Shown here: one piece after another, positions 24,730 through 41,727 of the stretch
How positions within the stretch are numbered: position 1 is the first letter of the stretch
Layout: the number at the start of each line of letters is the position of its first letter
Program-made: the position numbers and the translations under genes
Notes under the pieces: model-generated
What the model was told of the DNA's origin: nothing
What the model saw: only the letters and a program-made list of their open reading frames with translations
Databases searched by the model: none
NCBI GenBank assembly: GCA_034521495.1
Contig: JAXHMK010000003.1
Coordinates: 1-44,444, forward strand
Reading direction: 5' to 3'
From: Balneolaceae bacterium
GTDB lineage: Bacteria; Bacteroidota; Rhodothermia; Balneolales; Balneolaceae
DNA: 44,444 nucleotides

Positions 24730-25743
24730 ATGTACAACATTGTAAAAATCCCAGGGGATGGAATTGGAACAGAGATCACTGAATCAGTAACAACTATTTT
24801 GGCAGCAGCCGGTGCAGAGATAAACTGGATTGAGTGTGAAGCCGGCGAAGCAACGTTTAAAAAGACGGGGAATCCGCTGCCGGACGAAACATTCGATGCG
24901 ATTGATAAGCATCGAATAGCACTAAAGGGACCTCTGACTACGCCGGTTGGAGCAGGTTTCCGATCTATCAATGTGGCATTACGGCAAAAGTTTGATCTGT
25001 ATAGTAATATTCGTCCGGCCAAATCACTGCCGAATATTGAGAGTCCGTTCAGGGCCGTTGATCTTGTGATGTTCAGAGAGAACACACAGGGCCTTTATAT
25101 TGGTAAAGAACAGTGGATTGATGAGGAAAAAGAAGAACATGCCGAAAGTATTGCAGTGGTTACACGTAAGGCCAGTGAAAAAATTATCACGGCGGCGTTT
25201 GAGTATGCAAAAAAGAACAACCGAAAGAAGATAACCCTGGTCCATAAGGCCAATATTTTGAAATTAACGACAGGTCTTTTTCTCAATATCGGAAAAGAGA
25301 TTTCAAAGAAATACCCGGAGATAGTTTTTGAAGATCTGATTGTGGATAATATGGCGATGCAGATGGTACAGTATCCTCAACAGTTTGACGTAATCGTTAC
25401 AACCAATCTTTTTGGTGATATTTTGTCTGACCTGGCATCCGGCCTTGTAGGGGGACTTGGTGTGACCGGTGCAGCCAATATTGGCGATGATGCTGCTATA
25501 TTTGAAGCTGTTCACGGTTCCGCACCCGATATTGCAGGCCAGGGGAAAGCAAATCCAACCGCACTTCTGTTTTCGGCACTGATGATGCTGGAGTACCTGG
25601 ATGAATATCGGCTGGCTGAAAAAATACGCTCTGCTGTTTATACGGTTTTACAAGATCACAAAGATGAGTGCACCCCCGATGTGGGCGGCAGTGGTACAAC
25701 ACAATCGTACACCGAAGCGATTTGTAAATTACTACGGGATTGA
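24730..25743 (+). CDS. NAD-type isocitrate dehydrogenase (isocitrate/isopropylmalate dehydrogenase family)
   Basis: 337-aa beta-decarboxylating dehydrogenase. Substrate residues include S79 and the Arg series R85 and R95, RENTQG (116-121), K173 and N175, and metal-binding D206, D230 and D234. The signature NLFGDILSDLASGLVGGLG is intact. The nucleotide loop HGSAPDIAGQGKANPTA has D267-I268 where NADP-dependent enzymes have Lys-Tyr, so NAD is the likely cofactor. RENTQGLYIG favours isocitrate over isopropylmalate (which usually has RELTGG), and no leu genes are adjacent. The alternative, a homoisocitrate or tartrate-type dehydrogenase, is less likely. It would feed 2-oxoglutarate into the TCA cycle. 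Followed by a bidirectional-looking terminator at 25881. Confidence 0.87.
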   Translation: MYNIVKIPGDGIGTEITESVTTILAAAGAEINWIECEAGEATFKKTGNPLPDETFDAIDKHRIALKGPLTTPVGAGFRSINVALRQKFDLYSNIRPAKSLPNIESPFRAVDLVMFRENTQGLYIGKEQWIDEEKEEHAESIAVVTRKASEKIITAAFEYAKKNNRKKITLVHKANILKLTTGLFLNIGKEISKKYPEIVFEDLIVDNMAMQMVQYPQQFDVIVTTNLFGDILSDLASGLVGGLGVTGAANIGDDAAIFEAVHGSAPDIAGQGKANPTALLFSALMMLEYLDEYRLAEKIRSAVYTVLQDHKDECTPDVGGSGTTQSYTEAICKLLRD

Positions 25744-25880
25744 TTGGCTGATTTTCCTACGATTACACCTGTTTTTAAATGGGGAAAATCCTTAGAAAGT
25801 TTAGTTCAGGCTTCGGCAGGAATCTTTTTGTTAGAAAATTTATAGATTAAACTATGTTTTTATGATTCAAGGGTAAAAAC

Positions 25881-25912
25881 AGGCTTTAAACATACCTTAA
25901 AGCCTATTTTTA
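25881..25912 (+). terminator. Terminator downstream of isocitrate dehydrogenase
   Basis: Perfect 9-bp arms AGGCTTTAA (25881-25889) and TTAAAGCCT (25897-25905) around ACATACC, followed by ATTTTTAT. An A run precedes it, so it could act in both directions. Confidence 0.8.
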
Positions 25913-26357
25913 TGCAGACAAAACCTTCATAGAAATATTTTTAAATTGATTAAAATCGGGCTTTCGCTATATGATTAATAATATCAAGAGATTGTAAAAA
26001 GGACCCATCGGTTTTAAAATTTTCCCTATATGCCCCTAAGGAAATCCCTTAGATGCAAAGGTTCTGAAAAGCTCTACCATACATGATAGGCAGTGCTTAT
26101 TAACCAGCTGCTGTGTTTCATATAATGATTTTTTAGTGGTTATTCATTTTCACAAAAGTGAGTCATACATGAGTGATGAGTTACTATAAAAGACCCGAAA
26201 AAACCTGAGATGTAAGTATTGACCTCTCTTACCTTTTGTCGTTTAAAGTATTGATCTTGAATTGATACCGGCGAACCAAGCAAGAGACGCAATTATGTGA
26301 GACATAGTGAATTGGCTGGTGAAAACTTTTCAGGGATACTGAGGATCTTTGGAAATG
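25913..26357. other. Long leader/regulatory region upstream of susC
   Basis: 445 bp with no ORF of useful length. It includes a small hairpin CTAAGG/CCTTAG near 26035-26052. The region presumably holds the promoter and an untranslated leader for susC, but no convincing promoter motif could be fixed by eye. Confidence 0.45.
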
Positions 26358-26390
26358 GGTATACCACATAACCAATAATGAAGGTATACC
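26358..26390 (+). promoter_or_regulatory. Paired GGTATACC palindromes immediately before susC
   Basis: The perfect 8-bp palindrome GGTATACC occurs at 26358-26365 and again at 26383-26390, centres 25 bp apart, and the second ends exactly one base before the susC ATG. They could be a dimeric operator. They could also form an RNA hairpin with each other (loop of 17 bases) that hides the translation start. Confidence 0.55.
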
Positions 26391-29300
26391 ATGAAGATAA
26401 AATCAGACAATTCACTATTTGCAATGCTGCTCCGTACTATCGCAAAAGCGGGGTTGAGCATGTACCTTGTTCTGTTTTTGTGCTCTTCCGTTAATGCCCA
26501 GGATATCCAGACAGTTCATGAAGTTTCAGGAACTGTTACGGATGCCAATGATGGCGAGACACTCCTGGGAGTTAATATTATGGTAGTAGGTACAACTACC
26601 GGTACAACTACAGACATGGAAGGAAACTACTCTCTATCGGTCCCATCACCAGATGCCCAGTTACGATTCTCGTATATAGGCTATCAACCTGTTGTGGTGG
26701 ATGTAGACGGACGAAATACGATAAATGTGGAGATGGAGATTTCTGCTATTCTTGGCGAAGATCTCATTGTTACAGGATATTCTGCTCAGAGGCGAATAGA
26801 TCTTACAGGGTCTATCAGTGTAGCCGATGTTCCCCAGATGCAGAAAATTGCTGAGTCATCTGTAAACCAACAGTTACAAGGTCAGGTTTCAGGTGTAACA
26901 GTTTCGCAATCAGGTCAGCCGGGCGATGAGCCCTCTGTACGAATACGGGGAGTTGGTAATTTTGGTAATGTAAATCCGCTTTATGTTGTTGATGGTGTTC
27001 CCACCAGCAGTATTGGCGATTTGAACCCCAGGGATGTTGAATCGTTACAAGTTTTGAAAGATGCTTCTGCGGCATCTATTTACGGTTCAAGGGCATCAAA
27101 CGGGGTGATAATTATCACTACAAAACAGGGGCGTCCGGGATTGAGCGTTACTTTTGATTCGTATGTGGGGTACGAAACCCCCAAACATCACGGCAATGCT
27201 TTTAATATTGCTTCTCCTATGGAGATGGCCGAACTGGAGTGGCTGGCCTATAACAACTCAGGTCTCACCCCTTCATCTTCCCTGTACGGAAGCGGTTCAA
27301 CACCCCAATTACCAGATTATATAGCTCCGACCGGTGCAATGGAGGGAGAGGTAAATCACGATGATTACTATGTGAATCCCTACTACACAGATACGGCTGA
27401 TTTGGGAAACTTTTTCCGAATTACTCAGGCCAATAAACAGGGTACCAACTGGTTCCAGGAGATCTTTAAACCTGCTTATACAGTGAACTCTAACTTATCG
27501 GTAAGCGGTGGTACAGATGATGCCAGTTACATGTTATCGTTGAATTATATTAATGAAGAAGGCACCCTGCTGCGAACCTATAATGAACGGTACACGCTTC
27601 GTGTAAATACACAGTTCAACCTGACCGAAAATATTCGTGTTGGCCAGAACGCATCAATAGCCATGTGGGAAAATCCACAGGCTGGTTCACTTAATGAAGG
27701 TACAGCCACAGGTATGGTCTATCGGCAGCAACCCATTATTCCCGTTTACGATATAGCCGGGAACTTTGCGGGTAATTTCGGAGCTCCTTTGGGTAATGCC
27801 AGTAATCCGGTTGCACAGCGCGAACGAACCATGAATAATACGGGCGAAAATAATCGAATTTTTGGTAATGTATTTGCTGAAATCGATTTTCTCGAAAATA
27901 TAACTTTCCGTTCTAATTTTGGCGGCAGTTATGCTACCAGTAATTGGAGTTGGTTCCAGTTCCCTGAATATGAAAATGCAGAAAATGCTGTTGTAAATTT
28001 ATATGGAGATGGAGCCTGGAACGGCACAAACTGGACCTGGACAAATACGGTTACATACACAGATCTGCTGGCCGATGTTCATAATGTCACTGTTTTATTA
28101 GGAACGGAAGCGAACGAAGATACCGGCCGCGAACGTGGCGGAACCCGGACCGACTATTTCTCATTCAATCCTAATTATGTGAACCTGAGCAATGGTGCCG
28201 GAGATCCCACCAACTATAGCTGGCAGTACGAGAATGCACTGTTCTCTCTCTTCGGCCGTGCCGAATACAATTACGATAACCGGTACCTGCTGAATGCAAC
28301 CGTTCGGCGAGACGGTTCCTCCCGATTTCTCGATAATCGATACGGTTTATTTCCATCCGGTAGTATTGGATGGCGTATTTCTGAGGAGGAATTTATGCGT
28401 GATGTTGACTGGTTGACAAACCTTCAATTACGTGCAGGATATGGCGTAATGGGGAACCAGTTGAATGTTGCAGCAGACAATGCCTACTCACTTTTTGGAG
28501 GAAACCAGCTTTCTACATTTTATCCGATAACAGGCGGGCCTACCATATTCCAGGGATTTGCACAAACGCGAATCGGTAATCCTGGGGCACGCTGGGAAGA
28601 GTCTCATACAATGAATTTCGGTGTAAATACCATGTTGTTTGAGGGAGCTCTTGAGATTGATATGGACTTCTATAAAAATGATGTGCGAGACTTGTTGTTC
28701 AACCCGGAATTGCCCGGACAGGCCGGCCTTGCATCACAGCCATATGTAAATGTTGGTAATGTAGAAAACAAAGGGCTTGATATGTCCATTACAGGACGCA
28801 GGGATATCTCCCAGGATTTCAACATGAGTGCAACGGTTAACTTTACTACATACAGCAATGAAGTGGTAAAAATTGCCGAAGGTGTTGATAATTTCGACGG
28901 AACAAGCCGGCGCTTTGGCAGCGGTAATCCTATTGTCAGAAACCAGGTTGGTTGGCCGATATCCACATTCTTTGGTTATAAAATTGAAGGATTTTGGAAC
29001 GAACAGTCAGAAATTGACCAGGCCAATGCAAGTGCAGGCGGCGTGTACCAGGAAGAGGCAGCTCCCGGTAGATTCCGATATGCTGATGTAAATGGCGACG
29101 GACGCATTACTGCCGATGATCGCACCAGGTTGGGTGATCCACATCCCGATTTTACATACGGACTGGATCTCACCGTCAACTACAAAAGTTTTGACGTGAG
29201 TGCATTCTTCTATGGGTCGCAAGGCAATGATATCTGGAACCAGGTAAAATGGTGGACCGATTTCTATCCCTCTTTCCAGGGAGCGAAAAGTAAAACCGCT

Positions 29301-29663
29301 TTGTACGATTCCTGGACACCAGACAACCACAATGCCACAGCACCCATCCAGGAAAATGCCGGTTCTACGGCTACGAACCTTGTGCCCAACTCCTATTATG
29401 TTGAGGATGGTTCATATCTGAGATTGAGAACGTTCCAGGTTGGATACTCATTCACTCCCGATATGCTCTCATATGTTGGATTGAACAGGCTGAGGGTTTA
29501 TGTACAAGCCCAGAACTTGTTTACCATCACAAATTATTCAGGGCCCGATCCTGAAGTAGGTAATACACAGTCAGCCAATGCCAGCACCACAAGTTTTGGT
29601 GTAGATGAAGGTGCATATCCAACCTCCCGCCAGTTCCTGGTTGGGTTTAATCTCGGATTTTAA
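26391..29663 (+). CDS. SusC/RagA-type TonB-linked outer-membrane transporter
   Basis: 1090-aa outer-membrane receptor that moves oligosaccharides or peptides into the periplasm using TonB energy, working with the SusD lipoprotein encoded next. A signal peptide ends near A36 (CSSVNAQ). A carboxypeptidase-regulatory-like beta domain follows (about 43-118: VSGTVTDANDGETLLGVNIM to FSYIGYQPVVVDV). A TonB-box-like stretch DLIVTGY is next, then the plug (about 131-245) with the SusC-type motif NPLYVVDGVPTSSIGDLNPR and KDASAASIYGSRASNGVIII. The remaining 850 residues are a 22-strand barrel ending in the aromatic FLVGFNLGF. No glycosidase or lyase lies next to the pair, so the cargo cannot be guessed. 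Confidence 0.95.
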   Translation: MKIKSDNSLFAMLLRTIAKAGLSMYLVLFLCSSVNAQDIQTVHEVSGTVTDANDGETLLGVNIMVVGTTTGTTTDMEGNYSLSVPSPDAQLRFSYIGYQPVVVDVDGRNTINVEMEISAILGEDLIVTGYSAQRRIDLTGSISVADVPQMQKIAESSVNQQLQGQVSGVTVSQSGQPGDEPSVRIRGVGNFGNVNPLYVVDGVPTSSIGDLNPRDVESLQVLKDASAASIYGSRASNGVIIITTKQGRPGLSVTFDSYVGYETPKHHGNAFNIASPMEMAELEWLAYNNSGLTPSSSLYGSGSTPQLPDYIAPTGAMEGEVNHDDYYVNPYYTDTADLGNFFRITQANKQGTNWFQEIFKPAYTVNSNLSVSGGTDDASYMLSLNYINEEGTLLRTYNERYTLRVNTQFNLTENIRVGQNASIAMWENPQAGSLNEGTATGMVYRQQPIIPVYDIAGNFAGNFGAPLGNASNPVAQRERTMNNTGENNRIFGNVFAEIDFLENITFRSNFGGSYATSNWSWFQFPEYENAENAVVNLYGDGAWNGTNWTWTNTVTYTDLLADVHNVTVLLGTEANEDTGRERGGTRTDYFSFNPNYVNLSNGAGDPTNYSWQYENALFSLFGRAEYNYDNRYLLNATVRRDGSSRFLDNRYGLFPSGSIGWRISEEEFMRDVDWLTNLQLRAGYGVMGNQLNVAADNAYSLFGGNQLSTFYPITGGPTIFQGFAQTRIGNPGARWEESHTMNFGVNTMLFEGALEIDMDFYKNDVRDLLFNPELPGQAGLASQPYVNVGNVENKGLDMSITGRRDISQDFNMSATVNFTTYSNEVVKIAEGVDNFDGTSRRFGSGNPIVRNQVGWPISTFFGYKIEGFWNEQSEIDQANASAGGVYQEEAAPGRFRYADVNGDGRITADDRTRLGDPHPDFTYGLDLTVNYKSFDVSAFFYGSQGNDIWNQVKWWTDFYPSFQGAKSKTALYDSWTPDNHNATAPIQENAGSTATNLVPNSYYVEDGSYLRLRTFQVGYSFTPDMLSYVGLNRLRVYVQAQNLFTITNYSGPDPEVGNTQSANASTTSFGVDEGAYPTSRQFLVGFNLGF

Positions 29664-29689
29664 AAGAATTAAATAGACAGAGGTCTAAT

Positions 29690-31603
29690 ATGAAGAACTC
29701 AAAAAATGTAATCATCATACTTGTACTAATCTTTACCGCAGGTATGTTCACAAAAGCGTGCGGAGATGAATTTCTTACGCGCCCTGCTATGGGATCGCTG
29801 AGTGAAGATGTAGTAGCCGATCGCAACGGCGTAGAAACACTTTTAATGGGGGCTTATGGGGCTCTCAGTCAAACCGGTAACCAGGGCTGGGGAGATGGCC
29901 TTCCGGGAGACGGAGCCTGGGCAGTTTGCCCCTCCAACTGGCTTTATGGAAGTGTTATGGGAACTGAAGCTCACAAAGGAAGTGATGCAGGTGACCAGCC
30001 ACAAATGAACACCCTCGGAGGTATGAACGTATCACCCTCCACAGGATTCATAAACCTGAAATGGAGAGGTCTTTACGAAGGTATTGCCCGTACAAACTCT
30101 GTGCTGAGTGTACTGCCAGATGTACCTGTTTCTGAAGGTGTTTTCAGCGAGGCAGATAAAGCCAGGATAGAAGCTGAAGCGCGTTTTCTGCGCGGACACT
30201 TCTACTTTGAGCTGAAGAGGTTCTATAATAACGTTCCATGGATCGATGAAACTGTGGATGCACTTACACCTCAGCCAAATGACCAGGATATCTGGCCAAA
30301 GATAGAAGCGGATTTCCAGTTTGCATTTAACAATCTCCCGGCTGTTCAAGCACAGGCTGGACGACCCAATAACTGGGCGGCTGCATCATATCTCGCCAAA
30401 TCCTATATGTACCAGGAGAAATTTTCGGAGGCCAAATCCTTGTATGATCAAATCATTTCCGATGGTAATACCTCTAACGGATTGGCATATGACCTTGTAC
30501 CGCTCGATCAGGTACATAACCCGGTCAATAAAAACAATGCAGAATCGGTTTTTGCTATTCAGGCATCTGCCGATGACGGGACAGGCACTATTCAAAATGC
30601 TAATCCCGGGATGATGCTCAATTATCCGTATAACAGTCCGTTTCGCTGCTGTGGTTTTTACCAGCCTACACTTTACCTGGTAAATTCCTTTCAAACAGTT
30701 GATGGAAAACCACTGATTAACGACTTCCTTTCAACTCCTGTGAAAAATGATCTGGGAGTTCTTTCAAGTGAAAATTTTGAGCCTCACAGCGGTACTCTCG
30801 ATCCACGGCTTGACTGGACGGTTGGCCGTCGCGGTGTTCCGTTCCACGACTGGGGACCACACCCCGGTCAGCGATGGGTGCGCGACCAGGCATATTCCGG
30901 TCCATATGCTTCCAAAAAGCACATCTGGTGGCAAAAAGATGATCAGGATGTAAACAATCCGAGTCAGTGGGCACCCGGTACATCGTATAACATCCCGATT
31001 ATTCGTTTTGCTGATGTCCTGTTGATGGCAGCCGAAGCGGAAATCGAAACAGGAAGCCTGTCACAGGCACTGGAGTATATTAACCGTGTACGAGCACGTG
31101 CTGCGGATCCATCTGCATGGGTTAAAAACGAATTCAATGAAGGATATGCTTTTGAAATCGTAAGCAGTGAAGCAGAGATGCTGGCACTCGAACCCACCTC
31201 CGGAAGCTGGGTAGTACGGGAAGATACTGGAACCACGTTTGTGTATCTGGGCGGCGGTGCAGCCGATATCAATAATTGGAATGAGTATACAGAGCCTAAT
31301 TATAATATCGATCTGTATGATGATCTTGGCACTCAGCAGCAAGCCAGGGAAATCGTACGGTTTGAACGCAAGCTGGAACTGGCCCTTGAAGGCCACAGGT
31401 ACTTTGATCTGGTTCGATGGGGAATTGCTGAGGATGAAATCAATGAGTTTATGGACTACGAAGGTGATTTCTTCCCGGCTTCATATCTCAATGAAGGGCA
31501 GTTTACACCAAACAGAAATGAATACTTCCCGATTCCACAAAGACAGATCGACTTGAGCACTGTTGGTGGAACTCCGGTTTTACAACAAAATACAGGTTAC
31601 TAA
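29690..31603 (+). CDS. SusD/RagB-type nutrient-binding lipoprotein
   Basis: 637-aa surface lipoprotein that caps the SusC barrel and captures substrate. The lipoprotein signal ends at C24 (FTKAC). The SusD N-terminal region starts at DEFLTRPAMGSLSEDVV, with the helical TPR-like core around ARIEAEARFLRGHFYFELKR and NWAAASYLAKSYMYQEKFSE. The C-terminal RagB/SusD domain has YNIPIIRFADVLLMAAEAEI and ALEYINRVRARA, then FERKLELALEGHRYFDLVRW and the final NEYFPIPQRQIDLS. It starts 26 bp after susC, with the purine-rich AGAGG as a weak ribosome-binding site, and is closed by a strong terminator. Confidence 0.95.
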   Translation: MKNSKNVIIILVLIFTAGMFTKACGDEFLTRPAMGSLSEDVVADRNGVETLLMGAYGALSQTGNQGWGDGLPGDGAWAVCPSNWLYGSVMGTEAHKGSDAGDQPQMNTLGGMNVSPSTGFINLKWRGLYEGIARTNSVLSVLPDVPVSEGVFSEADKARIEAEARFLRGHFYFELKRFYNNVPWIDETVDALTPQPNDQDIWPKIEADFQFAFNNLPAVQAQAGRPNNWAAASYLAKSYMYQEKFSEAKSLYDQIISDGNTSNGLAYDLVPLDQVHNPVNKNNAESVFAIQASADDGTGTIQNANPGMMLNYPYNSPFRCCGFYQPTLYLVNSFQTVDGKPLINDFLSTPVKNDLGVLSSENFEPHSGTLDPRLDWTVGRRGVPFHDWGPHPGQRWVRDQAYSGPYASKKHIWWQKDDQDVNNPSQWAPGTSYNIPIIRFADVLLMAAEAEIETGSLSQALEYINRVRARAADPSAWVKNEFNEGYAFEIVSSEAEMLALEPTSGSWVVREDTGTTFVYLGGGAADINNWNEYTEPNYNIDLYDDLGTQQQAREIVRFERKLELALEGHRYFDLVRWGIAEDEINEFMDYEGDFFPASYLNEGQFTPNRNEYFPIPQRQIDLSTVGGTPVLQQNTGY

Positions 31604-31995: not shown

Positions 31996-32373
31996 ATGGA
32001 ATCGAACCCCAAAATTTTAATCGTAGAAGATGAGTTGGTTTTACAATTGATGCTCGAGCACATGCTAAAAAAAATGGGGTTCGAGCATTTAGGTACAGCC
32101 ACCAAAGGTGCGTCTGCTATCCAAAAAGCCAAAGAAGACTCTTACGATCTAATCCTTATGGATATAATGCTACAGGACGAAATTGATGGCATTGAAGCCT
32201 ACAGGGAGATCAAAAAAGAGAAAGAGATACCGGTTATCTATATTACCGGGAATACCGATCCGCGAAATAAAGAAAAAGCAAAAAATTTAGGATATCATGA
32301 CTATATGGGGAAACCGATTACTTTTTCACATCTAAAAAATTCTATTGAAAGGCTTAACTTGTTGAAAGATTGA
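31996..32373 (+). CDS. Single-domain response regulator (CheY-like receiver)
   Basis: 125-aa protein made of a receiver domain only. The acidic pocket is E11/D12 (IVEDE), the phosphoacceptor is D56 in DLILMDIML, the switch Thr is T84 in IYITGN, and the conserved Lys is K106 in YMGKPI. It has no output domain and no adjacent histidine kinase, so it probably acts as a phosphorelay intermediate or by protein contact, with its kinase encoded elsewhere. DEIDGIEAYREIKK is typical of the group of stand-alone receivers paired with PAS-histidine kinases. It is convergent with the peptidoglycan hydrolase gene (37-bp gap). Confidence 0.93.
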   Translation: MESNPKILIVEDELVLQLMLEHMLKKMGFEHLGTATKGASAIQKAKEDSYDLILMDIMLQDEIDGIEAYREIKKEKEIPVIYITGNTDPRNKEKAKNLGYHDYMGKPITFSHLKNSIERLNLLKD

Positions 32374-32410: not shown

Positions 32411-34882
32411 TTAGTTCTGTGATTTTAGAAACACTTCCGTTTTCTTTTTTAGCATTCCACTGTCAAGATATTCCTGCAGATGCTCCCCCGGACAAGATGT
32501 ATCCGCCCAATCTCCGTGGCCATAAATGTCATTTAAACTCAAATTATATTTTTGAATAGCATAGGCCGTCATTTCTGCAATGGCATTGAGTTGTGCTTCC
32601 GTCGGTTCCTGTTGATTATAGTTCCCCATCACACTTATGAGCAGATGTCCGCGCGGATCATATGTGGTATTGGTTTCACCCGCGTATTTGGGATCTCGAC
32701 CTTCATAAATATTTCCGTCCAGATCGATTAAATAGTGATAAGGCAGATCCCACCAGTTGCGATCCTCCGCGCCCCATTCAAACAGGTTGTTCAGGATTTT
32801 AATGGGATCGTCTTCCGGTTCAAGCGGTTCGGCACTCCCGGAATGGTGTAGCGTAATTTGATTGATGGTATGAGGAACACGAAGCCGGTATTCAGCTGAT
32901 CCGGTGCTTAGGGCCGAAGCCCTGTCAACCGGCAGCGAGTTTACTGTAGCGACCTCAAACTGGGCCATGCCGCTGTCGAAATTAGTGTTGATCAGGCCAA
33001 CATGATAACCGTACCAGTTCATCGCTTCGCCAGGCTGAAGAAAAAACTGCTCAGACACACCATTTCGATAGAGCTGAACGGTAACCCTTTCGTTGATCTC
33101 CGTACTATCTTTCTTCTCAGAAGAGATACCCATGAAGTGCCCGGGATATGGAGTTGATTTCAACATTCGTGAAAAGACAAGGCTGAAGTCACGGAATTGA
33201 AGTGTATCTCCGTGCATCAGGTTTCTGCGCACGGCATTGGCATCATACCCTAACGGTTCATGCTCAGCCCAATCCTCTCGTTTTATTACATTTTCAGGAA
33301 GCCTGGCAGAATCCCTTATGGCTGATTCAATAACTTCTGTTTTGATCGGCTCAGAAAGCACACCCTCTATACCAGCCCGATTTACCCCGGAAACGACAAT
33401 ATCGGACGGACGCTTCATCCCTTCTCCTCCAAAAAAATCGATCTCACGATGAAAAGCGGGATAGTATTCCACTTCCCATTGGTCATTTAATTTTGTTCTC
33501 ACAAGCCACCATTGAATATCATCTCCATTTTGTGGTTGAAGAGTTAGCGACCAGTAAGAGTTAAAATCGTGAAATGTAACCGCCGGTGCATCCGGAACAG
33601 TTGTTGAGATCCAGGGGGATGCAGGAATCAGTGATGGATATGCATTCGGCCCGGCGGCAAGAATTTGGTTGAAATCATCGGGGTTTTCCATGAACGTTTT
33701 CATGCTGAAGTGAACGGCACCGGTTACATTCGGAAATGCCCGTGATGTATATAATTGGCCGGTGATTTCATTCGCCGGCCATGATGATAAAATTCGGCTT
33801 GTAAACAGTCCCGGCCAGATATGCCGGTTGTAATCGTTCTGCTCCACCCACCAATCCAGCATGATGGGAAACGGCTGCCCAACCTGATCCAGACGATAAT
33901 AGATCTGAGGTGTAAAATAATCCACCCAGCCCTCCTTCAGCCAGAGCCGGGCATCGGCATAGAGTTCATTGTAAGCATCGAATCCGGTAGTATACTCAGG
34001 ATAACCCGGCCGCCAGATTCCAAACGGACTGATCCCAAATTTTACGTGAGGTTTTACTTGTTTGATCTCTTCAGACAGTTCTCTCATCAATGTATCCACA
34101 TTACTTCGCCGCCAGTCTTTCCGGGAGAGTGTTGTGCCCTTTTCGACGGCTTTTTGCCAGCTTTCAGTGTCCGGGAAATCGGCTCCGTCAGCGTAGGAGG
34201 GATAGGGATAGAAATAATCGTCAAAATGAACGCCGTCGATATCATAGCGCTCAACCACGTCTAAAATGACTTCGATCGTATGCTGACGAACCTCAGGAAT
34301 GCCGGGATCGAGCCAAAGATAATCGCCATATTCATGGACCCAGTCTGGCTGTATTTTGCTGATATGATCGGGCGAAATTTCTGATTTATCTGAAGGATGG
34401 CCGGCACGATAGGGATTGAACCAGGCGTGTAATTCCATTCCCCGTTTATGAGCTTCTGTTACAGCAAACTCAAGCGGATCATATGCAGGCAATGGCGGTT
34501 GTCCCATTTTCCCGGTCAGGTAGTACGACCAGGGTTCATGGGGTGAGGGGTAGAGAGCATCAGCCGCGGGACGAACCTGGAAAATGATGGCGTTGAAATT
34601 CAATGCAGCAGCACGATCCAGGATGTCAATCATCTCTTCTTTCTGTCTGTCCACGGGCAGGCCGGGCTCAGAAGGCCAGTCGATATTTGCAACAGTAGCC
34701 ACCCATACGGCCCGAAATTCCCGGTTTGGTTTGAGACCGTCAACCTGCTGAACCGATGGTTTTTCAATCTCTGGTGGTTGTTGTTCCTCAACGATAGATT
34801 CGGTGGACCGACAACTTAGTATAGTCAGCCATAGAATTGGTAACAGAAGAAATAAACGGATCTTCAAAAGCCCTGATATCAT
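32411..34882 (-). CDS. GHL10 glycosidase - N-acetylmuramoyl-L-alanine amidase fusion lipoprotein (full copy)
   Basis: 823-aa two-enzyme lipoprotein. The lipobox ends TILSC (C24). Residues about 55-370 form a GHL10 (PF02638) barrel: EFRAVWVATVANIDWPSEPG, FNAIIFQVRPAADALYPS and GVHFDDYFYPYPS. The middle (about 430-650) is a linker with Ig/FN3-like and beta-rich sequence. Residues 666-810 are an amidase_2/PGRP domain with zinc ligands H679 (TLHHSG), H789 (YGHGDW) and C797 (TSCPGEH). In E. coli the GHL10 protein DigH cuts denuded peptidoglycan glycans at the division site, and amidases make that substrate. A single protein that strips stem peptides and then cuts the glycan is therefore a plausible reading, but it is inferred. 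Bases left of 32968 lie outside the duplicated unit, so only this copy keeps the amidase. Confidence 0.93.
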   Translation of the reverse strand: MISGLLKIRLFLLLPILWLTILSCRSTESIVEEQQPPEIEKPSVQQVDGLKPNREFRAVWVATVANIDWPSEPGLPVDRQKEEMIDILDRAAALNFNAIIFQVRPAADALYPSPHEPWSYYLTGKMGQPPLPAYDPLEFAVTEAHKRGMELHAWFNPYRAGHPSDKSEISPDHISKIQPDWVHEYGDYLWLDPGIPEVRQHTIEVILDVVERYDIDGVHFDDYFYPYPSYADGADFPDTESWQKAVEKGTTLSRKDWRRSNVDTLMRELSEEIKQVKPHVKFGISPFGIWRPGYPEYTTGFDAYNELYADARLWLKEGWVDYFTPQIYYRLDQVGQPFPIMLDWWVEQNDYNRHIWPGLFTSRILSSWPANEITGQLYTSRAFPNVTGAVHFSMKTFMENPDDFNQILAAGPNAYPSLIPASPWISTTVPDAPAVTFHDFNSYWSLTLQPQNGDDIQWWLVRTKLNDQWEVEYYPAFHREIDFFGGEGMKRPSDIVVSGVNRAGIEGVLSEPIKTEVIESAIRDSARLPENVIKREDWAEHEPLGYDANAVRRNLMHGDTLQFRDFSLVFSRMLKSTPYPGHFMGISSEKKDSTEINERVTVQLYRNGVSEQFFLQPGEAMNWYGYHVGLINTNFDSGMAQFEVATVNSLPVDRASALSTGSAEYRLRVPHTINQITLHHSGSAEPLEPEDDPIKILNNLFEWGAEDRNWWDLPYHYLIDLDGNIYEGRDPKYAGETNTTYDPRGHLLISVMGNYNQQEPTEAQLNAIAEMTAYAIQKYNLSLNDIYGHGDWADTSCPGEHLQEYLDSGMLKKKTEVFLKSQN

Positions 34883-35272
34883 TTGATGAAGTTTTTATTG
34901 GGTTGAAAAATCAAAAATTATAGACCAAATAATAAGGTTTTTTTGCGAACGGAGTAACCACGGGGATAAATATTCATAATCAAAAATATCTCTGCGCCAT
35001 TTCAGATGACTCTATCAGAAAGGGGAAGGTTCAAGAATTAGCAGGGGCAGCAGGATTGTTCTCTCAATATTCGCGGATTAAATAGAAACGTATTGCATAA
35101 AGATCCAATCATTTTAAAAATGAAGTTTCCAACAAATATGTGTGACAGAACTGATAATAATATTTCGCATTAGTTATTAGAGATAGGATGGAGATGATTG
35201 ATTTAGATATTCAAAAACTTTTCTACTCCAACCTTTTTAATGCCAGAGAGACTTAGAAAAAGGAATTAAATT
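34883..35272. other. Divergent intergenic region, left duplicate copy
   Basis: 390 bp between the divergent GHL10 and small-lipoprotein genes, nearly the same as 40618-41007. It must contain both promoters. No ORF or strong hairpin was seen; differences between copies are a handful of substitutions. Confidence 0.5.
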
Positions 35273-35728
35273 ATGAGATCTAATTATTTGCGAATTCTTA
35301 CCATAACAATTTTTCTGCTAACACTAATAGTGACATCATGCAAGGATTCAACCAGTTCTGAAAGTTCATTCATCGAAATTACTGACAGTTCATATTCTGT
35401 TGTTCAATTAAATGGATGCGACATTGATTCGGGTGCTTCAGCCACACGGTTTCAATTTGTATTGAACTTTGATTCAAGTTCAGGAGTAGATATTAGTGGA
35501 ATTGAGTTCGACATTTTATTTGAAAGCGGTACGGAAGGTGAAAATATTTTTGAAGATGACTTTGAAGTCGTTGGACAATCACTTGAATTTGACTTCTGCT
35601 TTAGATTTGGAAGTTCTTCATCATGGATTGAAATCTATCCATCTATTCTGGCTAATAATGAGGAGTTAGTAAGTAATGAAATTACGATCAGGATAGAGAG
35701 GCCGGAGGATGCCAATAAGAATTCATAA
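35273..35728 (+). CDS. Small hypothetical lipoprotein (left copy)
   Basis: 151-aa protein with a hydrophobic leader and a lipobox ending IVTSC (Cys at residue 23), then a Ser/Thr/Glu-rich linker and a beta-rich acidic body (VQLNGCDIDSGASATRFQF, FCFRFGSSSSWIEIYPSIL). No family was recognised. AAAGGA upstream of the ATG is a reasonable ribosome-binding site. It lies between the GHL10 and lyase genes, divergent from the first and convergent with the second. The translated copy at 41008-41463 is identical, while neighbouring sequence has changed slightly, which suggests selection or recent conversion. Confidence 0.8.
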   Translation: MRSNYLRILTITIFLLTLIVTSCKDSTSSESSFIEITDSSYSVVQLNGCDIDSGASATRFQFVLNFDSSSGVDISGIEFDILFESGTEGENIFEDDFEVVGQSLEFDFCFRFGSSSSWIEIYPSILANNEELVSNEITIRIERPEDANKNS

Positions 35729-35738
35729 TAGATTGATT

Positions 35739-35762
35739 TTGATTATTCATCAAGATAATCAA
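35739..35762 (+). terminator. Hairpin after the small lipoprotein gene (left copy)
   Basis: Perfect 8-bp arms TTGATTAT and ATAATCAA, with loop TCATCAAG, 10 bp after the stop codon; only a loose T-rich stretch follows (GATTTTTAATT). The same hairpin occurs at 41474-41497. Confidence 0.5.
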
Positions 35763-35991
35763 ATAACTGATTTTTAATTCACATTCGGGCTTCTCGGCCT
35801 ATCTTTTGACTAAAATTTGGTTAAACCAATTACTTTTTCCTTATTTCCAAGTCAGCTGTAGCAGACGGTAATAGATACCTTTCCATTATCTAAGGCTCTT
35901 TTGCAATTTTACTTTCCGAAAGCAATCAGATGTAATCTAAAGTGCCACAAACCGCTAAACAGTTACAATAAATTCCAATAAGGAGAGTCCA

Positions 35992-38702
35992 TTATTTGAT
36001 CACACTTACCCTGACACTTTTTTGATAGGCAGACCCAGCTTCAGGCGTGACAGTTAACCGCAGAATGTATATTCCCGACGATAAACCACCAGAATTCCAT
36101 TCTTTAGTAAAGGTACCAGCAGACTGCGAATCGCTAAGGATCAATTTAATTTTACGACCCAGGAGATCAAAAAGTTGAAGGGTTACATCGGCCTCTTCTG
36201 CAAGTTGATATCGTACATTCCCGGCCTCCCGCATAGGGTTTGGAAAGGGGTTATACAGCTTGAACTCGTCTGGTGTAGCCGATTGGTCGAAGTAGATCCA
36301 TTCGGTGTAATTAGATGGTGCTGAAGTCAACGAGTCGGAGTTCACGGCTTTTACAAACCAGCGCTGGTCAAATTCACCGGGCGGTAGATTGGTAATCGAG
36401 GCGTCCGCGTAGCTGTTGGTTTCTGATGTGCCAATTAATTCAACGGGTTGTTCGGATTGATCGGAGCGGGCCCTCAACTGTTTCCAGATTTCATAAAAAG
36501 CGATATCCCCCCCGGGCTCATTCCAGCTCAAAACAGCTGCGGGTCCTGCAGCTCGTTCTTCTATAGAAACGGAGAGATTTTTGGGCGCATCAGGTGCGGT
36601 ACTGGATTGCAGATGTACCGTATAATCAGAATCCTGCATCCAGCTATCACCATCCATTCTGAATCTTGAAAACCCGATGGTTTGATTTGCCAGGAGGGCA
36701 ATTTCAATTTCACTTAGTGGTCCGGATTGAATGTTTAGTGAGCGATTATTTTCAGTTGTATCAGCCGCAAAAACGAACAGGTCGATCGTTTCCGGGTCAA
36801 CTCGGTATGTGATATAACTCAAATCTCCTGAATTTGATACAAATTCAGGCTCAGAAGATGGTATGTCTTCAAGAATATTCAGAATACTTGCCGTTGTAAA
36901 TCGGTTGGATTCCTGGTCGCTGAGATATGATTTTCTTATTACTGGATATGGCATTTTTTCTCCATCAACCCGATTTTGAGCTTCCTGTATCTGAACTGTT
37001 TCAATCTCCTCATCATAATTTCCGAAAAGAGGAACTGTATACAAAAAAAGTCGATGGGAAGGACTTGTAAATGGCTGAGCTGAAAAATCCCAAAGGAACC
37101 AACCGTTTTCAGTATCAGATTGATCGCTGTTGCCGTAGTATCGCATCACAAAGTCATTACGACCCGAAACGGCTGCAATATCATTGATGTCGATCAGGTA
37201 GGGGTTCTCTCCCTTCACAAATATAATGGAACGGTTGTAGGTAGAAGAAGAACCCGAAGGAGAGTCAAAATTCAATTCAACCTGACCAGATATCAGTTCC
37301 ACATTTTGAGCCGGATTTTGATAATCAATGTCCGCTTCATTGTGAACGCTTACTTTCCTTGTCTCGGTAATGGAAGCAAATGGACTTTCAAGCCCGCCCT
37401 CATTCTGGTAGGTTACAAAATCGAACGTAGTTTCGATATCGGATGCATCATACTGCATGGTATTCGTGTAAAGGTATCCGTTCCAAGTGCTGTTGGTTTG
37501 AGGATTCCCGCTGTCGTAACCTCCATCCGTGAGAAATGAATATTCATCCAAATAGTAGAGCAGTTGCAGTTGATCGGGTTGTTCGTGACCTTCGCCGCTG
37601 GTGATTGATTTCCCTTTTTCGCCCACCAGCGCAAGATAGTGCTGTTGGTTTGATGCATCCGTATGGCGAATGATGAATTGCTGATCTTCGGGGTTTGTAA
37701 GAGATTCAATGTCAGAACTACTGCTATTGTTGATTGGAATTGCCGCCTCAACCAGGTAAAACTGGTCTTCATTTTCTGTTTCACTATGGTGTTCGGAGAG
37801 ATTATCAAAAATTGTTGTAAACATTCTGCCAACTTGTTCGTCTCCATACTCGCCGCTCCAACGTAGTAAATTGGCGGCTTGGATGGGCCGCTTGTTGCTG
37901 TCATCAAGTGCTGGCAGGGAACCATCAGGGGTTGAAAGATCGGCCAGCCATCGGACGGGATTCAGAAACCAATCATTAAAAAAGGGATCGAACGACTCAT
38001 CAAGATCTTCATTAATACGAATAGCGTGCCAGAAGATGATGGCGTCCTTCAATACAAAATCCAAATAGAACGGGCCTTCCGCCCAAAACCGGCTGCCGTT
38101 TGCGGTTTGATACATCCAATATCGTCCCCTCTGGTCATCTGATGGCTCACTGGCTTTTCTTCGGGCAGTTGAAATATAATCGTCCAGGGTGTCCGCTCTT
38201 CCTGTGTTGCAGTTTGGGCACTCATGGATGCATAAGCGAGGGCAAAATATCCCTTCATAGGGCGATTCCCGGCTTCAAGATGATCCTCCGTTACTGTAAA
38301 AAGGCCGCCCACACCATACTCTCTTTTTAAACCATTATTAAAAAGAATATCAATATCAGCCCTGAAGCGATTCATCAAATCTGTTTTTTCCTGTTCTGTA
38401 AGGAGCGAAGAATCATCCAGTCCATAATGTTGGTACGCATTTTCTGTGGCCAAGTAGAGATCCAGCGCTCGTGCCATATTATTAAAGGAGCGGATAGCAT
38501 TCAGGTAGTCATCAAACGGTTGATCTCCCGGTAATTTTCGAACCAATTTATTATTTGATGTTAGAGAATTAATGGCATTCGTCAATTTATCAATCACCAT
38601 TGAGTGCTCGCCTATAGTAAGGCCGTAAGTATTCTTAGAGCTGCTCAGAATCGATCCCGTTTTGTTCTAATACGAGAGATGCCAGCGTTTCAAAAGCCAG
38701 GT
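35992..38702 (-). pseudogene. Heparinase-like lyase with T9SS sorting domain, 5'-truncated and frameshifted (left copy)
   Basis: Copy of the lyase at 41728, cut at its 5' end by the duplication junction (38702/38703) and fused to a GHL10 fragment. It also has two single-base differences from the other copy: an extra base near 38640 (AGAGCTGC against AGACTGC) that puts a stop at 38635, and one C missing at 38193 (GTGTCCGC against GTGTCCCGC). As read, the coding sequence is broken into a 183-codon fragment (38049-38600) and the rest (35992 to about 38115). The rest still encodes a heparinase-type beta region (GHEQPDQLQLLYYLDEYSFL), an FN3-like domain and the C-terminal sorting domain (FKLYNPFPNPMREAGN to the end). 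Confidence 0.85.
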
Positions 38703-40617
38703 TGCCGCTGTCGAAATTTGTATCAATCAGACCAACATGATAACCGTACCAGTTCATCGCTTCGCCAGGCTGAAGAAAAAACTGCTCAGATACACCATTT
38801 CGGTATAGCTGAACGGTAACCCTTTCGTTGATCTCCGTACTATCTTTCTTCTCAGAAGAGATACCCATGAAGTGCCCGGGATATGGAGTTGATTTCAACA
38901 TTCGTGAAAAGACAAGGCTGAAGTCACGGAATTGAAGTGTATCTCCGTGCATCAGGTTTCTGCGCACGGCATTGGCATCATACCCTAACGGTTCATGCTC
39001 AGCCCAATCCTCTCGTTTTATTACATTTTCAGGAAGCCTGGCAGAATCCCTTATGGCTGATTCAATAACTTCTGTTTTGATCGGCTCAGAAAGCTCACCC
39101 TCTACTCCCGCACGATTTACCCCGGAAACGACAATATCGGACGGACGCTTCATCCCTTCTCCTCCAAAAAAATCGATCTCACGATGAAAAGCGGGATAGT
39201 ATTCCACTTCCCATTGCCCATTTAATTTTGTTCTCACAAGCCACCATTGAATATCATCTCCATTTTGTGGTTGAAGAGTTAGCGACCAGTAAGAGTTAAA
39301 ATCGTGAAATGTAACCGCCGGTGCATCCGGAACAGTTGTTGAGATCCAGGGGGATGCAGGAATCAGTGATGGATATGCATTCGGCCCGGCGGCAAGAATT
39401 TGGTTGAAATCATCGGGGTTTTCCATGAACGTTTTCATGCTGAAGTGAACGGCACCGGTTACATTCGGAAATGCCCGTGATGTATATAATTGGCCGGTGA
39501 TTTCATTCGCCGGCCATGATGATAAAATTCGGCTAGTAAACAGTCCCGGCCAGATATGCCGGTTGTAATCGTTCTGCTCCACCCACCAATCCAGCATGAT
39601 GGGAAACGGCTGCCCAACCTGATCCAGACGATAATAGATCTGAGGTGTAAAATAATCCACCCAGCCCTCCTTCAGCCAGAGCCGGGCATCGGCATAGAGT
39701 TCATTGTAAGCATCGAATCCGGTAGTATACTCAGGATAACCCGGCCGCCAGATTCCAAACGGACTGATCCCAAATTTTACGTGAGGTTTTACTTGTTTGA
39801 TCTCTTCAGACAGTTCTCTCATCAATGTATCCACATTACTTCGCCGCCAGTCTTTCCGGGAGAGTGTGGTACCCTTTTCAACGGCTCTTTGCCAGCTTTC
39901 GGTATCCGGAAAATCGGCTCCATCAGCGTAGGAGGGATAGGGATAGAAATAATCGTCAAAATGCACGCCGTCGATATCATAGCGTTCAACCACATCTAAA
40001 ATGACATCGATTGTATGCTGACGAACCTCAGGAATGCCGGGATCGAGCCAAAGATAATCGCCATATTCATGAACCCAATCGGGTTGAATTTTGCTGATAT
40101 GATCGGGCGAAATTTCTGATTTATCTGAAGGATGGCCGGCACGATAGGGATTGAACCAGGCGTGTAATTCCATTCCCCGTTTATGAGCTTCTGTTACAGC
40201 AAACTCAAGCGGATCATATGCAGGCAATGGCGGTTGTCCCATTTTCCCGGTCAGGTAGTACGACCAGGGTTCATGGGGTGAGGGGTAGAGAGCATCAGCC
40301 GCAGGACGAACCTGGAAAATGATGGCGTTGAAATTCAATGCAGCAGCACGATCCAGGATGTCAATCATCTCTTCTTTCTGTCTGTCCACGGGCAGGCCGG
40401 GCTCAGAAGGCCAGTCGATATTTGCAACAGTAGCTACCCATATGGCCCGAAATTCACGGTTTGGTTTGAGACCGTCAACCTGCTGAACCGATGGTTTTTC
40501 AATCTCTGGTGGTTGTTGTTCCTCAACGATAGATTCGGTGGACCGACAACTTAGTATAGTCAGCCATAGAATTGGTAACAGAAGAAATAAACGGATCTTC
40601 AAAAGCCCTGATATCAT
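38635..40617 (-). CDS. Truncated GHL10 lipoprotein fused to a lyase fragment (chimera at the duplication junction)
   Basis: Residues 1-638 match the GHL10-amidase protein almost exactly, including lipobox C24 and the whole GHL10 barrel. After TNFDSG the sequence switches to NLAFETLASLVLEQNGIDSE, which is lyase sequence (YLAFETLTSLVLEQNG in the intact copy). The frame is kept across the junction but stops after 22 lyase residues because of an extra base near 38640. The amidase domain and its zinc site are absent. If the base changes near 38640 and 38193 were errors, the ORF would run to 35992 and encode a chimera of about 1541 aa with a T9SS signal at its end and a lipobox at its start. As read, it is a 660-aa glycosidase-only lipoprotein. 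Confidence 0.9.
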   Translation of the reverse strand: MISGLLKIRLFLLLPILWLTILSCRSTESIVEEQQPPEIEKPSVQQVDGLKPNREFRAIWVATVANIDWPSEPGLPVDRQKEEMIDILDRAAALNFNAIIFQVRPAADALYPSPHEPWSYYLTGKMGQPPLPAYDPLEFAVTEAHKRGMELHAWFNPYRAGHPSDKSEISPDHISKIQPDWVHEYGDYLWLDPGIPEVRQHTIDVILDVVERYDIDGVHFDDYFYPYPSYADGADFPDTESWQRAVEKGTTLSRKDWRRSNVDTLMRELSEEIKQVKPHVKFGISPFGIWRPGYPEYTTGFDAYNELYADARLWLKEGWVDYFTPQIYYRLDQVGQPFPIMLDWWVEQNDYNRHIWPGLFTSRILSSWPANEITGQLYTSRAFPNVTGAVHFSMKTFMENPDDFNQILAAGPNAYPSLIPASPWISTTVPDAPAVTFHDFNSYWSLTLQPQNGDDIQWWLVRTKLNGQWEVEYYPAFHREIDFFGGEGMKRPSDIVVSGVNRAGVEGELSEPIKTEVIESAIRDSARLPENVIKREDWAEHEPLGYDANAVRRNLMHGDTLQFRDFSLVFSRMLKSTPYPGHFMGISSEKKDSTEINERVTVQLYRNGVSEQFFLQPGEAMNWYGYHVGLIDTNFDSGNLAFETLASLVLEQNGIDSEQL

Positions 40618-41007
40618 TTGATGAAGTTTTTATTGGGTTGAAATATCAAAAATTATTGACCAAATGATAAGGTTTTTTTGCGAACGGAGTAACCACGGGG
40701 ATAAATATTCATAATCAAAAATATCTCTGCGCCATTTCAGATGACTCTATCAGAAAAGGGAAGGTTCAAGAATTAGCGGGGGCAGCAGGATTGTTCTCTC
40801 AATATTCGTGGATCAAATAGAAACGTATTGCATAAAGATCCAATCATTTTAAAAATGAAGTTTCCAACAAATATGTGTGACAGAACTGATAATAATATTT
40901 CGCATTAGTTATTAGAGATAGGATGGAGATGATTGATTTAGATATTCAAAAACTTTTCTACTCCAACCTTTTTAATGCCAGAGAGACTTAGAAAAAGGAA
41001 TTAAATT
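40618..41007. other. Divergent intergenic region, right duplicate copy
   Basis: Same layout as 34883-35272, with a few substitutions. It should drive the truncated GHL10 chimera to the left and the second small lipoprotein gene to the right. Confidence 0.5.
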
Positions 41008-41463
41008 ATGAGATCTAATTATTTGCGAATTCTTACCATAACAATTTTTCTGCTAACACTAATAGTGACATCATGCAAGGATTCAACCAGTTCTGAAAGT
41101 TCATTCATCGAAATTACTGACAGTTCATATTCTGTTGTTCAATTAAATGGATGCGACATTGATTCGGGTGCTTCAGCCACACGGTTTCAATTTGTATTGA
41201 ACTTTGATTCAAGTTCAGGAGTAGATATTAGTGGAATTGAGTTCGACATTTTATTTGAAAGCGGTACGGAAGGTGAAAATATTTTTGAAGATGACTTTGA
41301 AGTCGTTGGACAATCACTTGAATTTGACTTCTGCTTTAGATTTGGAAGTTCTTCATCATGGATTGAAATCTATCCATCTATTCTGGCTAATAATGAGGAG
41401 TTAGTAAGTAATGAAATTACGATCAGGATAGAGAGGCCGGAGGATGCCAATAAGAATTCATAA
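41008..41463 (+). CDS. Small hypothetical lipoprotein (right copy)
   Basis: 151-aa product identical to that of 35273-35728, with the same lipobox (IVTSC), ribosome-binding site and trailing hairpin (41474-41497). Unknown function. Sitting again between a GHL10 gene and a lyase gene, its dosage has been doubled by the duplication. Confidence 0.8.
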   Translation: MRSNYLRILTITIFLLTLIVTSCKDSTSSESSFIEITDSSYSVVQLNGCDIDSGASATRFQFVLNFDSSSGVDISGIEFDILFESGTEGENIFEDDFEVVGQSLEFDFCFRFGSSSSWIEIYPSILANNEELVSNEITIRIERPEDANKNS

Positions 41464-41727
41464 TAGATTGATTTTGATTATTCATCAAGATAATCAAATA
41501 ACTGATTTTTAATTCACATTCGGGCTTCTCGGCCTATCTTTTGACTAAAATTTGGTTAAACCAATTACTTTTTCCTTATTTCCAAGTCAGCTGTAGCAGA
41601 CGGTAATAGATACCTTTTCCATTATCTAAGGCCTTTTTGTAATCTTACTTTTCGAAATCTATCAGATGTAATCTAAAGTGCCACAAACCGCTAAACAGTT
41701 ACAATAAATTCCAATAAGGAGAGTCCA

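Follow-up and report, generated by a model that had tools for sequence, protein, structure and literature searches.

A possible RNA stem-loop in the leader of a susC-like gene from a Balneolaceae bacterium

Start-occluding stem-loops are RNA hairpins that act in cis, covering the ribosome-binding region and the start codon. The leader described here, from a susC-like gene of the Balneolota, resembles them in that its complementary arms flank a loop, pair just before the AUG and are predicted to reduce initiation. It differs from them in that no opener, be it a ligand or temperature, is known here, and in that the strong stem is missing from six of 12 orthologous leaders. Control of susC at the translation start has already been reported in Bacteroides: FopS sRNAs and RbpB act at this point, RbpB being an antagonist of the FopS sRNA at the susC mRNA and rearranging the susC 5' UTR, in which one more position, -6, changes when FopS-10 is also present (PMC11697453). 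Our locus shares its control point, the susC translation initiation region, with the FopS/RbpB system of Bacteroides thetaiotaomicron, but the sRNA of that system pairs in trans, whereas pairing at the Balneolota locus would be in cis and no sRNA is known (PMC11697453). For Flavobacterium johnsoniae, a second study associates structure near the start with lower translation, and has low structure and an A at -3 favouring initiation (PMC6847099). Our leader likewise has an A at -3 but is unusually structured, and start tuning in F. johnsoniae is a genome-wide tendency, in contrast to the gene-specific element considered here (PMC6847099). Among the titles that a search of openly accessible papers, a part of the literature, brought up, none names a hairpin before susC in Balneolota.

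The stretch of DNA that we analysed (the window, 44,444 nucleotides) is the entire contig 3 of a 4.57-Mb genome of a member of the Balneolaceae near Rhodohalobacter. The host is a salt-loving bacterium and susC a nutrient-uptake gene. Encoded on the forward strand is a susC-like TonB-dependent transporter of 1090 aa (26391..29663), which scores above the TIGR04056 cut-off and has the Pfam domains CarboxypepD, plug and barrel; a search of Pfam at an E-value of 0.001 found no N-terminal signalling domain. In-frame stops lie directly 5' of the gene (TAA at 26376, TGA at 26379), and the ATG at 26391 is therefore the first of the 1090-aa frame. Its best match among named genomes is in Rhodohalobacter sulfatireducens (94% protein identity), with the next ones also in Balneolaceae. 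A susD-like partner of 637 aa follows 3' of susC on the same strand (29690..31603). Where we refer below to sampled starts, the sample is 444,444 bases of the organism's own sequence (the window plus 20 sampled stretches), with 269 starts, the window's own gene included.

Several other features of the neighbourhood were observed in passing. Three bases 5' of the susD ATG lies a conserved ACAGAGGTCT-like element (29677-29686), present upstream of susD in six of eight cases checked, namely the window and orthologues L047, L049, L050, L051 and L056; L054 is without it, and in L052 the start is called elsewhere. The element is a better anti-SD match than most sampled starts have (ranks 16-27 of 269). 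Just 3' of susD, 31996-32373 encodes a stand-alone response-regulator receiver protein of 125 aa that is 92% identical in the sister species. Two stretches of ~3.9 kb, 34766-38700 and 40501-44436, are 99.4% identical, the second extending nearly to the contig end; they contain 151-aa frames encoding identical proteins (35273-35728 and 41008-41463) as well as frames with a Por-secretion tail, and represent either a recent duplication or an assembly effect. Elsewhere, three other SusC-like genes appear broken (G000 C10:656467-659563, C9:192425-195423 and C21:54364-57145), two being split across several frames and one full of stops.

The window contains exactly two copies of the 8-mer GGTATACC, one at 26358-26365 and the other at 26383-26390, with centres 25 bp apart and the second copy adjoining the susC ATG at 26391, just as an earlier sequence-only reading of this DNA had described two identical palindromes ending at the base before the ATG. 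On the forward strand, the upstream copy is the predicted 5' arm of a stem, possibly extended around one bulged G by 26355-26357, and the start-proximal copy is the predicted 3' arm, which supplies the A at -3. Between them lies an A-rich loop of 17 bases (26366..26382), whose CATAACC (26367-26373) is found again in other susC leaders. An AAGG on the same strand (26381..26384), a weak Shine-Dalgarno-like match of putative function, overlaps the 3' arm, and a possible upstream ORF of seven codons, MGIPHNQ, with TAA as its stop, runs in frame with susC at 26355..26378 of that strand. As a side observation, CATAACCA or a close variant lies ~19-24 bases 5' of several different susC starts whose leaders are otherwise unlike (L117-L120, L122, L026, L032, L121 and the window at 26367-26373). 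We rejected it as a specific pre-start element, with 50 matches in the organism's own genome against 53 in the reversed control.

The same reading had held the pair to be unlikely by chance. Two copies of GGTATACC with 5-30 bases between them occur once in the genome, but the 8-mer itself shows no enrichment (31 sites in 4.57 Mb versus 43 for the reversed control), and a perfect 8-pair stem whose 3' arm lies close to the start, seen at one of the 269 sampled starts (the window's susC), arises on average 2.17 times in mono-shuffled leaders. Stems of seven pairs near the start number five in 269, compared with 8.33 after the same shuffling. One in 100 dinucleotide shuffles of the window contained two copies of GGTATACC, a figure that disregards the post hoc choice of motif. 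Identical 8-bp palindrome pairs within 40 bp were found twice in the 444,444 bases (the window pair and one in L201), and within the last 50 bases before a start only at the window's susC (1/269); roughly extrapolated from the 269-start sample, a few tenths of such cases are expected per genome. The pair is thus uncommon, and is not by itself proof of function. This is the setting for a rival explanation that we consider quite possible, in which the 3' copy is conserved as initiation context (A-rich, AAGG, A at -3), while the 5' copy resembles it by accident and has no function; the ~2 stems of eight pairs among 269 mono-shuffled leaders speak for it.

Orthologues of at least 78% identity gave 14 copies in 13 of 28 genus genomes, of which 12 have readable leaders; L023, in which the contig start cuts the gene, and L027, with homology only from residue 91, were dropped. 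A start-proximal element GGTWTRCC is present in ten of these 12: as GGTATACC in five (L017, which is the window, L018, L019, L021 and L022), as GGTATGCC in three (L024, L025 and L115) and as GGTTTACC in two (L209 and L028). It is absent from L116, the second copy in G012, and from L026, whose branch in the protein tree lies outside that of the other 13 copies. The upstream copy, by contrast, is exact in only two of the 12 leaders, the window and its sister L018, and in L024, L025 and L115 it is altered to GGTCATACC, with pairing to the 3' copy retained. Comparison of the leaders in relatives, which the sequence-only reading had proposed, therefore upholds the start-proximal copy and mostly fails the upstream one; the loss of both palindromes from orthologous leaders, which that reading had named as evidence against itself, is not what we see. 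The sister leader L018 keeps both GGTATACC copies, and none of its six differences from the window over the final 48 bases touches the 16 bases of the palindromes, which is weak evidence, having a probability of ~7% by chance in a hand calculation.

Conservation of the 3' element in 10/12 leaders, set against an exact 5' copy in 2/12, is what one would expect if the 5' copy were a chance match. That a different susC group (L117-L120) conserves its own, unrelated start region points the same way. When the 28 genomes were scanned for AAGGTNTRCCATG, 28 matches came up (22 for the reversed control), ten of them at starts of the window's susC group. Of the other 18, 17 open frames no longer than 71 aa, and L229 opens one of a different kind, at least 486 aa long; on the matches seen, the element therefore belongs to a gene lineage rather than to a regulon.

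The conserved block extends across the susC start codon, a feature that would also fit a third explanation, in which an sRNA or RNA-binding protein acts in trans on the start region as FopS and RbpB do, the 3' conservation then reflecting that pairing. FopS-10, in the Bacteroides study, binds the initiation region of susC BT_3983 and blocks its translation in vitro (PMC11697453). Against such an arrangement, the organism's own genome has no second near-complement of a 25-mer around the start at up to three mismatches, a result that speaks to long complements and not to shorter seeds, and we regard it as unlikely.

The two arms are complementary and predicted to fold across the start region. 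Folding 26340-26410 yields the stem with a z of -2.28, four of 200 shuffles being as low, and the helix can be written as AUGG(N)YAUACC with GGUAURCCAU, which means that it may extend to the A and U of the start codon. Over -36..+6 the window's leader has an MFE of -11.8 against a mean of -3.0, a value reached by 7/269 starts, itself included; in wider frames it ranks 18 (-45..+6), 19 (-40..+20) and 39 (-60..+40) of 269. By the mean pairing probability of -12..+3, taken in a 100-base context, the window ranks 5 of 269; the ranks of its relatives are 8 for L019, 14 for L021, 26 for L025, 27 for both L024 and L115, 38 for L028, 61 for L116, 63 for L026, 96 for L018, 103 for L209 and 207 for L022. 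This outcome depends on where the transcript begins: for six assumed 5' ends from 26300 to 26358 the mean pairing probability of the start region is 0.79-0.92, and for 5' ends at 26362 and 26366 it drops to 0.41 and 0.34, the stem being lost. A longer fold, 26290-26430, gave a z of -4.10 and includes a long-range helix (26304-26318 with 26404-26418), which we set aside because the L018 sequence no longer matches there. A search of the window found no Rfam leader element or riboswitch at the gathering score.

Among the 12 leaders, six have an MFE of -10.5 or lower over -45..+6 (L017, L018, L019, L024, L025 and L115), L019 attaining -10.5 kcal/mol via another register over the same bases. Their z values run from -1.85 to -3.30, where the mean of the 269 sampled starts is 0.12; a stem or its equivalent in half of the leaders, at such values, is a point against pure coincidence. 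The strong hairpin is missing from the other six (L021 -6.2, L209 -4.5, L026 -4.0, L028 -2.9, L116 -1.6 and L022 -0.6), and L022, which is closely related to the L024 group, has three differences, every one of which breaks a pair. Nor is such a hairpin common to susC genes at large, an idea we discarded when 15 other susC or SusC-like leaders were folded and none came out ahead of rank 87 of 269 (-45..+6). Separately, a different inverted repeat, GGTGTTATCAA with TTGATAACC and unrelated to ours, is found in L029 and L030, which are 53-54% relatives of this susC; its 3' arm stops 13 bases short of the start used.

The sequence-only reading had offered two functions for the palindromes, an operator for a dimeric repressor and an RNA switch in which the copies pair and block initiation. 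An operator, with a dimeric repressor on each GGTATACC, would account for two perfect 8-bp palindromes with centres 25 bp apart at a start, and for the retention of both in the sister species. In L024, L025 and L115, however, GGTCATACC and GGTATGCC are both non-palindromic yet remain mutually complementary, one U-A pair having become C-G, and this loss of symmetry with complementarity kept favours RNA pairing over two operators. Further against an operator, the 5' copy is exact in 2/12 leaders and the genome offers no regulon-like set of sites: 26 of the 29 other GGTATACC sites lie inside frames of at least 150 aa, and the motif search that had been proposed before the organism's other susC genes returned none in the last 200 bases at the four other loci that pass the SusC family cut-off. 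The operator is therefore not supported, and we think it the least probable of all the explanations raised here. As to the remaining sites, L248 is the sole other GGTATACC outside long frames that stands within 50 bases (33) of a longer frame, of 322 aa, whose product resembles a secreted glycosidase, judged by eye; at L009, L004 and L013 a frame starts within 100 bases, but the sites are inside frames of 518, 371 and 192 aa.

The compensatory double change in these three relatives counts against a meaningless 5' copy, but it is probably one event in one clade. Pairs were counted in an alignment of ten of the 12 leaders, and the count leans towards structure because L116 and L026, which lack the element, were left out. 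Helix cells pair in 87.5% of cases, against 14.8-45.5% when the partners are slid, a figure that itself leans towards structure because the structure was derived from the same sequences. Covariation is not above that of column shuffles (213, 455, 81, 500 and 91 of 500 for five measures). When halves of the same ten leaders were swapped, folding means were -7.98 for native leaders, -7.48 for all chimeras and -7.39 for between-clade chimeras; in permutations on five representatives, 60/120 were at least as good as native (native order included), and with L022 as a sixth, 393/720. The half-swap test gives no sign of 5'/3' coevolution, which agrees with a chance 5' match, but its power is low, since the 3' halves differ so little. 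The RNA switch thus keeps a predicted stem over the start and one double compensatory change in its favour, but has against it the six leaders without a strong hairpin and the lack of coevolution.

The duplex of AAGG with a typed anti-SD tail has an energy of -4.2 kcal/mol (rank 49 of 269), and the 16S-like end CACCTCCTT occurs twice in the genome. SD-like words are rare before the 269 sampled starts (GGAGG 3, AGGAG 7 and AAGG 20, with controls at 0, 2 and 11). Given this rarity, the moderate AAGG match and a report that Bacteroidia ribosomes do not recognise SD (PMC9976891), we reduced a Shine-Dalgarno reading to a minor remark. A sigma-70-type scan of 25740-26450 gave six sites versus 2.9 in shuffles, with no promoter assignable; TAnnTTTG is mildly commoner near sampled starts (up to 11/269, against 2 to 5 further upstream). 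An RTG stands at the position of the upstream ORF in all ten aligned leaders, but the ORF varies in frame and length, and a conserved leader peptide is therefore not supported.

Our preferred reading, which we hold tentatively, is that a short RNA stem-loop, with the two GGTATACC copies as its arms, sits at the susC translation start and damps translation. The 3' arm would be part of a start-site element, AAGGTWTRCC-ATG, conserved by this susC lineage for initiation, and in the window species, its sister and a second clade the 5' arm would pair with it through 8 to 10 pairs around a loop of 17 to 21. Such a stem would cover the bases just 5' of the AUG and, in some folds, also its A and U; its most likely effect would be a standing reduction of susC translation, which an initiating ribosome, an sRNA or an RNA-binding protein might surmount. 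Each copy would then look palindromic simply because the two arms that pair are equal. The sequence, the way it is conserved and the predicted stem are shown; we infer that transcription takes in the 5' arm, that the cell does form the stem and that it lowers translation. RNA pairing is plausible for the window species and a few relatives, and is not conserved as a switch. A conserved initiation site together with chance may account for much of the pattern, and the chance-match explanation comes close to the stem that we prefer. A bolder proposal is a cis translational switch on the SusC of Balneolota, adding to transcriptional control, in which the stem hides the start until a regulator opens it, for example a ribosome translating the short ORF at 26355-26378, an RNA-binding protein or an sRNA; we consider this very unlikely, only slightly less so than a double operator.

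Most probably the stem slows protein production modestly, or the pattern is in part a coincidence. If the stem works, start-site control of SusC transporters, as reported for sRNAs in Bacteroides, would extend to another phylum and to a simple hairpin acting in cis. If it is idle, the locus would illustrate how one conserved start-site element and one chance match can mimic a double operator.
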